From contig NZ_LMHZ01000026.1 of assembly GCF_001428545.1 (NCBI RefSeq), positions 1 to 61,162 on the forward strand: a stretch of DNA of 61,162 nt, written 5' to 3'. The notes beneath the pieces were generated by a model. That model saw only the letters and a list, made by a program, of their open reading frames with translations, was not told the DNA's origin and did no database searches. Shown here one piece after another: positions 7,813-12,817 of the stretch (position 1 is its first letter; each line of letters opens with the position of its first letter). The stretch comes from Noviherbaspirillum sp. Root189. GTDB taxonomy: Bacteria; Pseudomonadota; Gammaproteobacteria; Burkholderiales; Burkholderiaceae_D. The position numbers and the translations under genes are program-made.

Positions 7813-9927
7813 ATGCGTTTGTATAGCCACAAAAATCGACCGTTTCATCTCAGCAAATTTGCGCTGGAAGCATTACCCCGTATCGATATTGCCGCATTAC
7901 GTGAAGACAGCGCGCATCAGCCGGAAGACTGCCATGCGGCAGACGAGAGTGCGATATCGCATGCGATCCCGGAATATCTGGAATTATTCCGCAAGTACCT
8001 GGATGGTTCTCCAGTGCCATCGCGCGCGCCGGTCCCGGACGACATGGAGGCGCGCGCAAATAATCTGAAGGCGTCCGCATATTTCCTTGATGCGAGCATC
8101 AGCGGTGTATGTGCGCTGCAGGACAGCGACTGGTTGGTTGCCGAGCGGCCGCGGCATACGCATGCCTTCGTCTATCTGATTGAATTCGAGCGCGAACCCG
8201 AGGTAAGTGAACCGGGCGACACATGGATAAGAGGCAGCAACGTCGCACGAGGCGATTTGCGCGCCACCGAACTTGCGGTGATCCTGTCCGGCTACTTGCG
8301 CGCCATGGGATTTGAAGCACGTGGACATGCAGCGAACGCGGCGCTGATCGATATTGAAAAACTCGCGGTACGTGCCGGCATAGTCCGTGCGCAACGCGGC
8401 GTGCTGCAAGGGCCTTATCTGAAGACCGGATTTAGGCTCGGCGTGGTCACCACCGATTATGCAATGACATGCGATGCGCCGCACGATCCGGATGGCGAGC
8501 TGGAACCGGTCGATCCAGGCATCAGGATGGGCGTCGGCGGTATCCGGCCGCAATGGTGGAGCGATGAACTTGCTAAGCGCCCGTTGCATCTCGGACGCTA
8601 TCCAATGGAAAAGATCAAGCGGGCCGATGAACCGACGACGTTGGTGCTGCGCGACGAAATCCGGCGGGTGCCGAAGCGCGGCGATTTTTTCAAGCGCGCG
8701 CAGGCAGGCGACATCGGCGCAAAAGCACAGCAAGAAAAATCGCGCTTCGCGATGAAGCATCCGTATGCGCTTGGGATGGCGCCTTTGATTCAAAACATGG
8801 TGCCGCTGCAAGGCATACGCGAGCCATTGCAGCCTACCGGCATCGGCGGCGACCTGTCCGACCCGCAACGCAACGCCGATGCGATCAAGGCGCTCGGACA
8901 CTTTTTAGGTGCCGATTTCGTCGGCATCTGCGTTGCCGAGCCCTGGATGTATTACTCGCATGATGAGGTCGAGGGAAAGGAAATTCCTGCCTATCACAAG
9001 TACGCGGTATGCATGCTGATTGATCAGGGTTTTGAAACGATGGAAGGCGCATCTGGCGATGACTGGATATCGGCGTCGCAGTCGATGCGCGCTTACCTGC
9101 GCGGCGCCGAAATCGCCGGCGTGATGGCTGCGCATTGCCGGCGCATGGGATATTCCGCGCGTTCGCATTCGAATGCGCACTCAGAGGTCATACACAATCC
9201 GACCATCCTAATGTCCGGGCTGGGCGAGGTAAGCCGTATCGGCGAAACCATCCTGAATCCGTTCATCGGTCCACGTTCCAAGTCGGTGGTATTTACCACT
9301 GATCTGCCGATGGTGCCGGACCGACCGATCGACTTCAACCTGCAAAACTTTTGCGACAACTGCCTGAAGTGCGCGCGCGAATGCCCGTGCAATGCGATTA
9401 CCTATGGCCCGAAGGTGATGTTCAACGGTTATGAAATCTGGAAAGCCGACGTTGAGAAATGCACGAAGTACCGGGTGACGCAGCAAAAGGGTTCGGCGTG
9501 CGGCCGATGCATGAAAATGTGTCCGTGGAATCGCGAAGACACGGTGGAAGCCGAGCGCCTGACCTGGCTGTCGATAGAGCACCCGGAACTGGCGAAGGCA
9601 ATCGCGGACCTTGATGACTACCAGGGAAACGGCGCGCGCAATCCAATCAAGAAATGGTGGTTCGACCTGGAAATGGTGAATGGCGTCGCGATGCGCCCGG
9701 TGGCAGGCGTTAATGAACGTGATCTCAGCCCGGACCGGGGCGACAAACTGGCGAAGGCGCAGAAGCTGGCGTTCTTCCCGCCCGATTTGCAGCCGCGCGG
9801 CGGCACCACGCTGAACGAAACCGTTCCGGTGGATCGCGAAGCCGGCCTGGCGCGCTATGCAGAGGCCGAAACGCCGGCTGCCGCGCGTCGGCGTCTTGCG
9901 ATGAACCTTAACGACATTGAGCGCTAG
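7813..9927 (+). CDS. Cytosolic (catabolic, NpRdhA-type) reductive dehalogenase
   Basis: A 704-residue cobalamin- and iron-sulfur-dependent dehalogenase. The start at ATG 7813 follows AGGAG at six bases; an in-frame GTG lies at 7774. No Tat signal is present, so the enzyme is cytosolic, unlike respiratory PceA-type enzymes. The C-terminal half has CxxCxxCxxxCP (residues 514-524) and Cys550 plus CxxCxxxCP (563-570), for two [4Fe-4S] clusters. Ser424, Tyr428, Lys490 and Arg554 match, with a constant offset of two, the Ser422/Tyr426/Lys488/Arg552 I recall from NpRdhA, which binds ortho-halophenols. The N-terminal half is a degenerate copy of the cobalamin-binding part. No reductase domain is fused; the ferredoxins and reductase downstream would supply electrons. 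The exact substrate is unknown. Confidence 0.9.
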   Translation: MRLYSHKNRPFHLSKFALEALPRIDIAALREDSAHQPEDCHAADESAISHAIPEYLELFRKYLDGSPVPSRAPVPDDMEARANNLKASAYFLDASISGVCALQDSDWLVAERPRHTHAFVYLIEFEREPEVSEPGDTWIRGSNVARGDLRATELAVILSGYLRAMGFEARGHAANAALIDIEKLAVRAGIVRAQRGVLQGPYLKTGFRLGVVTTDYAMTCDAPHDPDGELEPVDPGIRMGVGGIRPQWWSDELAKRPLHLGRYPMEKIKRADEPTTLVLRDEIRRVPKRGDFFKRAQAGDIGAKAQQEKSRFAMKHPYALGMAPLIQNMVPLQGIREPLQPTGIGGDLSDPQRNADAIKALGHFLGADFVGICVAEPWMYYSHDEVEGKEIPAYHKYAVCMLIDQGFETMEGASGDDWISASQSMRAYLRGAEIAGVMAAHCRRMGYSARSHSNAHSEVIHNPTILMSGLGEVSRIGETILNPFIGPRSKSVVFTTDLPMVPDRPIDFNLQNFCDNCLKCARECPCNAITYGPKVMFNGYEIWKADVEKCTKYRVTQQKGSACGRCMKMCPWNREDTVEAERLTWLSIEHPELAKAIADLDDYQGNGARNPIKKWWFDLEMVNGVAMRPVAGVNERDLSPDRGDKLAKAQKLAFFPPDLQPRGGTTLNETVPVDREAGLARYAEAETPAAARRRLAMNLNDIER

Positions 9928-9937
9928 GAGCGTCGCC

Positions 9938-10261
9938 ATGACCCATGTCGTTACCGAATCCTGCATCAATTGCCGCCATACCGACTGTGTGGAAGTGTGC
10001 CCGGTCGATTGCTTCCGTGCCGGCGAAAACTTTCTCGTCATCGATCCCGACGAATGCATCGACTGCGGCGTATGCATTCCGGAGTGTCCGGTCGATGCGA
10101 TCGCGCTCGCGGAAGATTTGCCCCCCGATCAGCGACAGTTTGTCCGCATCAACGCGGAGCTGTCCACACTGTGGCCGGCAATCACTGCCAAGGTCGATGC
10201 GCTGCCGGATGCCGAACGCTATCAGGGACAACTCGGCAAGCTGGCCTTGCTCAAGCGCTGA
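9938..10261 (+). CDS. fdxA: 7Fe ferredoxin (FdxA type)
   Basis: A 107-residue ferredoxin starting MTHVVTESCINCRHTDCVEV. It has the [3Fe-4S] motif CxxCxxxxCxxxCP followed by the [4Fe-4S] motif CIDCGVCIPECP, then the ~50-residue C-terminal extension of FdxA proteins. ATG 9938 lies ten bases after the dehalogenase stop, with the TAGGAG of the stop region serving as the ribosome site, so the two genes are tightly coupled. I infer it passes low-potential electrons to the dehalogenase clusters. It could equally be a general ferredoxin recruited here. Confidence 0.9.
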   Translation: MTHVVTESCINCRHTDCVEVCPVDCFRAGENFLVIDPDECIDCGVCIPECPVDAIALAEDLPPDQRQFVRINAELSTLWPAITAKVDALPDAERYQGQLGKLALLKR

Positions 10262-10361
10262 CAGGCTGTCAGTGCGCAAATTCCATCGGCGGCATGACCT
10301 GCATGCCGTCGTTCTAAGGCAGATGTTTTTGCCATACAACAGCAAGCAGAGGAGACTTCAA

Positions 10362-11411: not shown

Positions 11412-11492
11412 AAAGGTGCGCGAAAGAGCGTGCAAGACAATGCGCTCTTCTTCGCGATCGAACTCATCCAGTAACCTAACGCGGAGAATGTC

Positions 11493-12509
11493 TTGATCAA
11501 AACCGATGTCGTCATTATCGGCGCCGGGCCGGTTGGCTTGTTTGCCGTCTTCGAACTGGGCTTGCTCGGTCTGGAAGCGCATGTCATTGATGTGCTCGAC
11601 AAGCCGGGCGGGCAGTGCGCCGAGTTTTATCCCGAGAAGCCTATCTACGATATACCGGGTATTCCCGCCTGCACCGGCCAGCAGCTGACTGACGGCCTGC
11701 TCGCGCAGATCCGTCCTTTCGAACCCGTGTTTCATTTTAATACCAGCGCCCAGCGTGTCGAGCAACTGGGCGACGGCAACTGGCGGCTGACTACCGATGC
11801 CGGTGAAGTATTTGAAGCCCCGGTCATCGTCATCGCGGCGGGCGGCGGCAGCTTCATGCCCAAGAAACCCGCCATCCCGGGAATTGAAGATTACGACGGC
11901 AAGTCGGTGCATTACGCGGTGCGCAGGATAGACGCGTTTCGTGGAAAGCGGCTGGTGATTTCCGGTGGCGGAGACTCGGCGCTGGATTGGACATTGGCAT
12001 TGCAGCCGGTTGCACAGCGGGTAACGCTGGTACACCGCCGTGCCGAGTTCCGTGCGGTGCCCGACTCCGTGGTCAGGATGCTGGCATTGGCCGATGCCGG
12101 CAAGATCGATTTCATGCTGGGCGAAATAGTGTCGTTGCATGGCGAGGAAGGGGTGTTGCAGCGCGTCGGCTTGCGTACCGATACAGGCACGCTCGATATC
12201 GGCTGCGATGCCTTTCTGCCATTTTTTGGATTGACAATGAAGATCGGTCCGATCGCCTCGTTCGGGTTGGACTTGCAAGCGGGACGCATCGTCGTCGATA
12301 CCGAAAAATTCGAAACGAACCGCAAGGGTATTTTCGCGATCGGCGATATCAACGTCTATCCAGGCAAGCTGAAGCTGATCCTGTCCGGCTTCCATGAGGC
12401 TGCGCTGATGGCGCAGCAGGCATTCCGCCTTGCACGTCCGACCCAGAAATTACTGTTTCAGTACACCACAACCTCTACCAAACTGCGTGAAAAACTAGGA
12501 GCCACATGA
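11493..12509 (+). CDS. Ferredoxin--NADP(+) reductase, thioredoxin-reductase-like type
   Basis: A 338-residue flavoprotein. The FAD-binding motif IIGAGPVGL is at the N-terminus, the family signature [18 protein letters not shown] follows, and the NADPH motif [11 protein letters not shown] is near residue 155. No CxxC redox pair is present, which separates it from thioredoxin reductases. The start is TTG 11493 behind GGAG. Its stop overlaps the next ferredoxin start by four bases (ATGA). It should move electrons between NADPH and the adjacent ferredoxins, and so to the dehalogenase. A decayed copy of part of this gene lies at 19096-19246. Confidence 0.9.
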
Positions 12510-12817
12510 ATATCCATGTCACCGATTATGAAGGTAAAGAGCACACCATCGATTTGGTGGAAGGCTGGCCATTAATGGAAGCCATCAAGGCGGCGTCCTT
12601 GCCGATCAAGGCGGAGTGCGGCGGCTGCTGTCTCTGTGCGACTTGCCATGTCTATGTAGACCCCGTATGGGCGGCACGGATGCCGGAGATGAACGCTGAA
12701 GAACAGGCACAGCTCGACGAAGCGCCGGAGATTAATGCGCGGTCACGTCTGGCATGCCAGATACGCCTGACGGCGCAGATGGACGGCTTGCGGGTCGCTC
12801 TAGCGCCAGTGTATTAA
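12506..12817 (+). CDS. [2Fe-2S] ferredoxin (adrenodoxin/putidaredoxin type)
   Basis: A 103-residue plant/vertebrate-fold [2Fe-2S] ferredoxin. The cluster ligands are in [10 protein letters not shown] (C-x5-C-x2-C pattern, with one additional Cys) and a distal LACQIRL. It overlaps the reductase by four bases, implying coupled expression as a redox pair. Ferredoxins of this type usually serve cytochrome P450 or ring hydroxylases, but none is present here, so the nearby dehalogenase is the likely acceptor. Confidence 0.92.

Follow-up and report, generated by a model that had tools for sequence, protein, structure and literature searches.

A rearranged NpRdhA-type reductive dehalogenase operon with separate redox partners in Noviherbaspirillum sp. 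Root189, a probable aerobic catabolic module

For the best studied of the standalone aerobic reductive dehalogenases the gene cluster has been described, yet reconstitution failed (accessible text of PMC10463259), which leaves the natural electron donor of these enzymes in question. Which proteins could serve such an enzyme is the question raised by a 61,162-nucleotide contig of Noviherbaspirillum sp. Root189 (NZ_LMHZ01000026.1, positions 1 to 61162 of the forward strand; hereafter the window), in which the original prediction had described an NpRdhA-type dehalogenase with separate redox partners. The five genes it named lie between 7813 and 12817, all on the + strand and in the order given there, i.e., RdhA, 7Fe ferredoxin, porin, ferredoxin-NADP reductase (FNR), and [2Fe-2S] ferredoxin. 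We regard them as part of a larger block that is probably an aerobic catabolic module, in which an ortho-halogenated 4-hydroxybenzoate-like acid would be imported and its halogen removed with electrons from NADPH.

The dehalogenase (RdhA, 704 aa, 7813–9927, + strand) was identified as a catabolic enzyme of the NpRdhA type by a profile search, alignment, structure modelling, and its active-site residues. It passed the curated profile TIGR02486 (168.7 bits, cut-off 160.35) and aligned end to end with NpRdhA of Nitratireductor pacificus (1077 bits, 68% identity), the starts coinciding at NpRdhA residue 1. The structure model (pLDDT 91.7, TM 0.97 to 6zxx/4ras) matched NpRdhA over its full length, including the extra N-terminal domain, and the window RdhA has both the duplicated (vestigial) cobalamin-binding domain and the full-length fold; such a comparison had been suggested by the original prediction as a check. 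The catalytic and cluster-binding residues are kept. The eight cysteines of the two [4Fe-4S] sites (C514, C517, C520, C524, C550, C563, C566, and C570) were invariant in 33/33 aligned sequences, and a motif scan of residues 1–80 did not find the twin-arginine consensus [ST]RRxF[LK], which agrees with the enzyme having been described as lacking an export signal and carrying two such sites. A respiratory, energy-conserving role, which could be suspected from the family common to RdhA and PceA, was rejected for want of the twin-arginine motif and is extremely improbable, as the full-length match to NpRdhA with its extra N-terminal domain and the cytoplasmic type of the redox partners speak against it too. 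No fused phthalate-dioxygenase-reductase (PDOR) domain was found in the 704 aa, where Pfam shows 4Fe-4S domains only. BhbA and JtRdhA have the RdhA core and the ortho-halophenol chemistry in common with the window enzyme and differ from it by a fused C-terminal phthalate-dioxygenase-reductase-like domain (accessible text of PMC10463259); a self-sufficient enzyme of the BhbA type was therefore rejected for the window, since RdhA stops at 704 aa without a reductase domain and its alignment with NpRdhA spans both proteins in full. RdhA is present as a single copy in its genome, and an RdhA of Noviherbaspirillum sp. Root189, possibly this protein, is named in a figure legend of PMC10463259.

The active site bears on the substrate. 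Y428, K490, and R554 correspond to Y426, K488, and R552 of NpRdhA and are kept in all 33 rows. Twelve residues of the NpRdhA pocket and entrance are named in the accessible part of PMC7565698, and 11 of them are identical in the window RdhA (F292, F293, K309, F312, A421, S424, M425, Y428, N454, K490, and R554), the sole change being from P311 of NpRdhA to A313. The catalytic and pocket Tyr, Lys, Arg, Ser, and Met as well as F291 were invariant throughout the alignment (33/33), while A419, which lines the pocket of the second halogen (A421 in the window), is Ala in 12/33 rows and Gly in 20/33, Ala being found in the window, N. pacificus, and nine other rows of the clade that were inspected. NpRdhA K307 (K309 in the window) holds the benzoate carboxylate in one conformation (PMC7565698, same part). 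As the pocket residues are kept, A421 included, they support a dihalogenated 4-hydroxybenzoate-like acid as the likely substrate class, for which 3,5-dihalo- or 3-halo-4-hydroxybenzoate would be the best guess. By analogy with NpRdhA, RdhA would bind the phenolic oxygen through S424, K490, and R554 and bring the ortho halogen into contact with cob(II)alamin, with Y428 as the presumed proton donor.

Next to rdhA, the flanking genes were identified as a LuxR-type regulator and the 7Fe ([3Fe-4S][4Fe-4S]) ferredoxin. The latter (FdxA type, 9938–10261, + strand) passed NF045490 (157.7 bits, cut-off 135), matches ferredoxin I and 7Fe ferredoxin structures, and has nine cysteines (positions 9, 12, 17, 21, 25, 40, 43, 46, and 50). 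Its gene starts 10 nt past the rdhA stop, so that the earlier wording "directly coupled" holds as close spacing but not as overlap. The FNR (11493–12509, + strand) is of the thioredoxin-reductase-like type, as judged from its similarity to 5ygq (473 bits), its place in the tree, and the motifs GAGPVG, GGGDSA, and HRRAEFR, with no redox CxxC found by the motif scan; its HRRxxFR motif presumably reflects a preference for NADPH. The [2Fe-2S] ferredoxin gene (12506–12817, + strand) overlaps the FNR gene by 4 nt and encodes an adrenodoxin/putidaredoxin-like protein (Fer2; best solved relative 3hui, followed by ferredoxin VI and putidaredoxin; also placed by a tree) with the ligands C38-x5-C44-x2-C47-x36-C84. 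The nearest solved kin of the two proteins, the 5ygq FNR and the 3hui ferredoxin, are what we take to be R. palustris proteins. A similar FNR/ferredoxin pair occurs in Rhodoplanes and, unlike that of the window, has no adjacent RdhA in the 7.4-kb stretch read. Electrons would thus travel from NADPH via the FNR and a ferredoxin to the two [4Fe-4S] clusters and on to the cobalamin, with the 7Fe ferredoxin as a possible second carrier.

How rarely such partners accompany an RdhA was assessed at two scales. In the genus, RdhA is present in 2/15 genomes and in the family in 3/294 (own genome counted in both), and one of the two other RdhA-bearing family genomes, the same-genus genome G162, has the gene order of the window; the third (G178) has an RdhA 58% identical on an 8.9-kb contig in which no redox genes were seen by reading. 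The wider survey took the best 80 of 234 RdhA relatives in named genomes, those closest to the query, and its linkage shares hold for that sequence neighbourhood only. Genes for FNR, [2Fe-2S], and 7Fe ferredoxin within 4.5 kb of rdhA were found in 2/80 loci (N. soli, L012, and N. pacificus, L016), or 2/54 when 3 kb are present on both sides, and in a further locus (L013) a [2Fe-2S] gene is linked to rdhA before the contig ends. The window order itself was seen in 0/80 wider loci, the 54 with 3 kb on both sides included. The search for the same order in other Burkholderiales, which had also been suggested, therefore returned nothing beyond the one same-genus genome among 294 family genomes and 80 wider loci. 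An RdhA frame above 1000 aa, as expected of the fused form, was present in four of the 80 loci (L081, L082, L083, and L087), and the open frame at L060 measures 1768 aa. Given this scarcity, most RdhAs in the part of the family surveyed have neither a linked nor a fused reductase. In the RdhA tree (4/83 rows dropped as short or interrupted, namely L051, L054, L059, and L084; L044 and G178 kept as a near-duplicate, apparently one contig with 8914 bases in both and a zero branch), the window and G162 fall inside a 14-row NpRdhA clade (SH-aLRT 100); two changes account for the linked state when L013 is scored as linked. Near the RdhA relatives of L007, L032, L036, L040, and L044 (L007 and L044 apparently being one contig) we also observed a gene that reads like a 2-haloacid dehalogenase of the HAD superfamily.

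To see whether the partners are dedicated to RdhA, the ancestry of each was compared with that of resident homologues. The FNR has a match at 1e-40 in 220/288 family genomes, but the cluster type is confined to two of the 288, G000 and G162 (100 and 94% identity), both carriers of the rdhA operon; identity of at least 90% was reached in 2/288, and the highest other family value among the matches listed is 55%. The cluster FNRs of Nitratireductor, which belongs to another class, are 67 and 65% identical to the window FNR. In a tree of the 18 best family rows (besides the window and G162) of the 220 matching genomes and 10 rows from rdhA-bearing genomes, the four cluster rows group together (94/89) and are joined by the Rhodoplanes FNR (100/100), which is not adjacent to the rdhA of its own genome in the stretches examined. 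The five cluster rows of the [2Fe-2S] ferredoxin also form one group (97/96) with a common 10-residue stretch, in a tree built without the own-genome paralogue, which fell below the inclusion limits (the next match in that genome being 34%), and without lower-ranked paralogues lacking a locus. Hence, the FNR and the [2Fe-2S] ferredoxin share ancestry with the Nitratireductor redox genes rather than with the resident genes compared, and because of this shared ancestry the [2Fe-2S] protein is, of the two ferredoxins, more likely to be the dedicated carrier. The 7Fe ferredoxin, presented by the original prediction as the partner most tightly tied to RdhA, did not bear this out: it is 57–58% identical to the Nitratireductor cluster copies, and 59–67% to copies in most of the other genomes that were searched, while the two further copies of its own genome reach 63 and 55%.

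Several observations weigh against a dedicated chain. The 7Fe tree, from which L162 was left out, neither establishes nor rejects a single cluster lineage (AU p 0.323). As many as 78 of the 80 related loci (52/54 with 3 kb on both sides) are without the full set of linked partners, and no FNR match at E ≤ 1e-30 was found in 7/17 RdhA-bearing genomes, several of which are metagenome-assembled genomes of unstated completeness; together, the rarity of linkage and these seven genomes suggest that the RdhA family seemingly has no need of the chain. Reconstitution with recombinant N. pacificus proteins failed in vitro (PMC10463259, citing Collins 2018), a negative outcome so far, in the relative, for the complete chain that the original prediction proposed. 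Spinach ferredoxin together with E. coli flavodoxin reductase, by contrast, can drive NpRdhA (PMC10463259, PMC7565698; accessible portions of both). At the level of the operon, the porin gene is set off by 61 nt before and 81 nt after it, and the second of these gaps, between porin and FNR, contains a weak terminator-like site of 5 pairs (11430–11445).

These points, in particular the unlinked relatives, the acceptance of foreign proteins, and the failure of the native set, could favor another account, according to which RdhA is an NpRdhA orthologue that any reduced ferredoxin serves, while the adjacent redox genes came to lie there by chance and supply ferredoxin for general use (e.g., to a monooxygenase or to biosynthetic pathways). 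It also draws on a pairing seen elsewhere: in all 7/7 rdhA-bearing genomes with another FNR, that FNR neighbours a 7Fe ferredoxin gene (gaps −1 to 71 nt), a count that omits the two Nitratireductor genomes and Rhodoplanes and concerns pairs outside the stretch around rdhA, so the pairing of an FNR with a 7Fe ferredoxin is widespread and does not depend on RdhA. However, the FNR and [2Fe-2S] ferredoxin of the window fall with those of the Nitratireductor clusters although the genera belong to two classes, their linkage to rdhA persists despite the different order, and no oxygenase was seen among the block genes (translations, Pfam), for which reasons we consider a general supply quite unlikely. 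A bolder form of the dedicated chain would have the FNR and the CCLC-type [2Fe-2S] ferredoxin move between Alpha- and Betaproteobacteria as a pair that accompanies the RdhA lineage; the 7Fe ferredoxin would be a second carrier of lower potential, and the two ferredoxins would feed the two one-electron steps. We put this forward tentatively and lean against it; if it were true, reconstitution with one ferredoxin or with mismatched ones would fail.

Two further observations concern the FNR. A 150-base stretch at 19096–19245, 6 kb past the block, is 88.7% identical to part of the cluster FNR gene, i.e., a partial copy, and had no match to the 18 resident family FNR genes compared. Beside the Rhodoplanes FNR, at L164 6767–7300, a repeated peptide pattern in an open reading frame suggests, by reading, a CRISPR-like direct-repeat array.

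The module that we favor reaches further upstream than was first proposed; the genes between 7813 and 12817 were recognized correctly, while the ABC transporter, the second binding protein, the LuxR-type gene, and a palindrome had been missed. DNA of G162 (on a 1.69-Mb contig) matches the window from base 1 to 12815, with unmatched gaps at 5345–5396, 6638–6799, and 7576–7703, and past the block the two genomes share one short match across three stretches (~60 kb). Since this match begins at base 1, the conserved block takes in the ABC transporter (231–5285), the second binding protein (5479–6639), and the LuxR-type gene (6782–7573). In 10/11 genes compared, dN/dS against the G162 orthologues was 0.055–0.128, low values that indicate purifying selection and argue that the block is not a product of chance; the first binding protein lies outside this range, its G162 orthologue being cut at the stretch end and the second binding protein matched instead. 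The GC content of the block (56.6–60% in 2-kb steps) falls inside the range of the window (50–63%) and does not set it apart.

All transport genes are on the + strand. The first periplasmic binding protein (SBP1, type I, Peripla_BP_6 by Pfam, 231–1478) is followed by a BPD_transp_2 permease (1551–2702, Pfam; dN/dS 0.128 to its G162 orthologue), a fused permease-ATPase of 601 aa (2692–4497, dN/dS 0.061), and a second ATPase (4509–5285, dN/dS 0.055), the last two read from their translations, and then by the second binding protein (SBP2, Pfam, 5479–6639; 382 bits to 3sg0, 336 bits to the 3ukj group). Among solved structures, the two binding proteins are both closest to 3sg0 and 4dqd and then to the 3ukj and 3tx6 groups, the latter being, as we assume, binding proteins of p-coumarate-like acids, so this kinship and the operon architecture make the set a putative aromatic-acid transporter. 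Downstream of rdhA, the outer-membrane porin (10323–11411, + strand, Porin_4) has Omp32 as its nearest solved relative (1e54, 108 bits), an anion-selective porin. Together, porin and transporter would import a halogenated para-hydroxy aromatic acid. The p-coumarate transporter of R. palustris (RPA1789, RPA1791-1793) consists, as in the window, of a permease, a fused permease-ATPase (RPA1792), an ATPase, and an aromatic-acid binding protein (accessible text of PMC3223731); the likeness is one of described architecture and not of sequence, and the window differs in having two binding proteins.

The transporter leaves room for a different substrate: instead of a hydroxybenzoate, the module might act on, e.g., a halogenated phenylpropenoid or phenylacetate, an alternative that we think possible though less probable. 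The presumed p-coumarate-like ligands of the 3ukj and 3tx6 group would fit it. So would the binding of p-coumarate, ferulate, and cinnamate by RPA1789 (PMC3223731), possibly the nearest kin, and the assay of the relative JtRdhA with a bromo-hydroxyphenylacetate (PMC10463259), each as given in the accessible text. Against it stand the pocket residues, K309 and A421 among them, which are those of an enzyme acting on 3,5-dibromo-4-hydroxybenzoate, and the two pobA genes of the genome (682.9 and 674.6 bits, cut-off 538.7). A dehalogenated 4-hydroxybenzoate could then enter the PobA route, encoded elsewhere in the genome. The substrate class first proposed was thus upheld at the level of sequence, by the kept active site, the aromatic-acid-type transporter, the Omp32-like porin, and the pobA genes.

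The regulator (6782–7573, + strand, start codon inferred) was recognized by its GerE helix-turn-helix; no other Pfam domain was found at E 0.001 and no solved relative at E 0.01. LuxR homologues (28–29% identity) lie upstream of rdhA in L012, L013, L015, and L016. At 7708–7728, 85 nt before the rdhA start, a perfect inverted repeat TGTCCCTAT-ctc-ATAGGGACA (9-3-9) is a candidate operator; it is preserved in G162 with one mismatch, inside the final 109 nt before rdhA, the part of the spacer following the LuxR gene to which the match extends. A repeat with arms of at least 9 appeared in 123/20000 base shuffles of the 239-nt LuxR–rdhA intergenic region. A second copy with up to 3 mismatches was not found in the window (0 expected), nor did a scan of the 12 other clade loci with up to 4 mismatches reveal the palindrome, an absence that leaves no basis for linking it to the LuxR-type regulator. 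In G162 (L004, reverse complement), a further perfect inverted repeat (10-3-10) was seen ~190 bases before rdhA and was not found in the window. A sigma-70 scan gave 4 sites (shuffles mean 6.6), and terminator-like sites numbered 24 (shuffles mean 12.9), the majority inside genes.

The enzyme would need cobalamin, for which the genome has a late-assembly and uptake locus. CobB, cobQ, cobA, cbiB, cobS, and cobT pass their profile cut-offs; for BtuB and BtuC, similar proteins came out as the best matches yet score below the B12 cut-offs. No match to CobN was found in the genome, which makes de novo B12 synthesis by the aerobic route unlikely, and the late genes with the BtuB/BtuC-like proteins point to salvage as the probable source. 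The setting of the module is presumably aerobic.

Among the closest known systems is the NpRdhA cluster of N. pacificus pht-3B (PDB 4ras, 6zxu, 6zxx), in which the RdhA has the same fold and catalytic residues as that of the window and the linked FNR, [2Fe-2S], and 7Fe proteins are 67, 59, and 57% identical, with a LuxR-type gene (28%) upstream. The orders differ: LuxR, RdhA, 7Fe, porin, FNR, [2Fe-2S] in the window, and LuxR, an oppositely oriented gene that reads as LysR-like, RdhA, FNR, [2Fe-2S], 7Fe in N. pacificus, N. soli likewise having the three redox genes beside rdhA in another order than the window. A search of the 22-kb N. pacificus stretch (E 1e-8, half coverage) revealed no homologue of the porin or of the ABC transporter of the window. 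An oxidoreductase and two ferredoxins in the NpRdhA gene cluster are already mentioned in the accessible text of PMC10463259; the central idea is therefore known for the orthologue, and separate redox partners beside such an enzyme are not new. Literature searches, mostly outside subscription papers, found no publication on the window locus and returned nothing on Betaproteobacterial catabolic dehalogenases. What is new here is the reshuffled, extended operon and a partner linkage shown to be rare.

Elsewhere in the window, we noted a WD40-repeat protein beside a 685-aa open reading frame without a Pfam match at 1e-5 (23822–25879) within 21882–25879, a KaiC-type ATPase gene (33564–35072, − strand) overlapping a hybrid histidine kinase gene (32012–33625, − strand), a TonB-dependent receptor followed by a BNR-repeat protein (40080–43766; score far under the BtuB cut-off), and, at 48064–52346 and 58774–60000 (− strand), a cytochrome c oxidase set (COX2, COX1, COX3) and a flavohemoglobin-like globin-FAD-NAD protein.

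A second native set outside Nitratireductor shows which partners stay together and offers fresh proteins for finding the donor ferredoxin. Its value lies in the comparison, which sets the FNR and the [2Fe-2S] ferredoxin, whose ancestry is common with the Nitratireductor cluster, apart from the 7Fe ferredoxin. The transporter, the porin, and the candidate operator hint at substrate and control, and may be useful for the oxygen-tolerant dehalogenation of aromatic pollutants.

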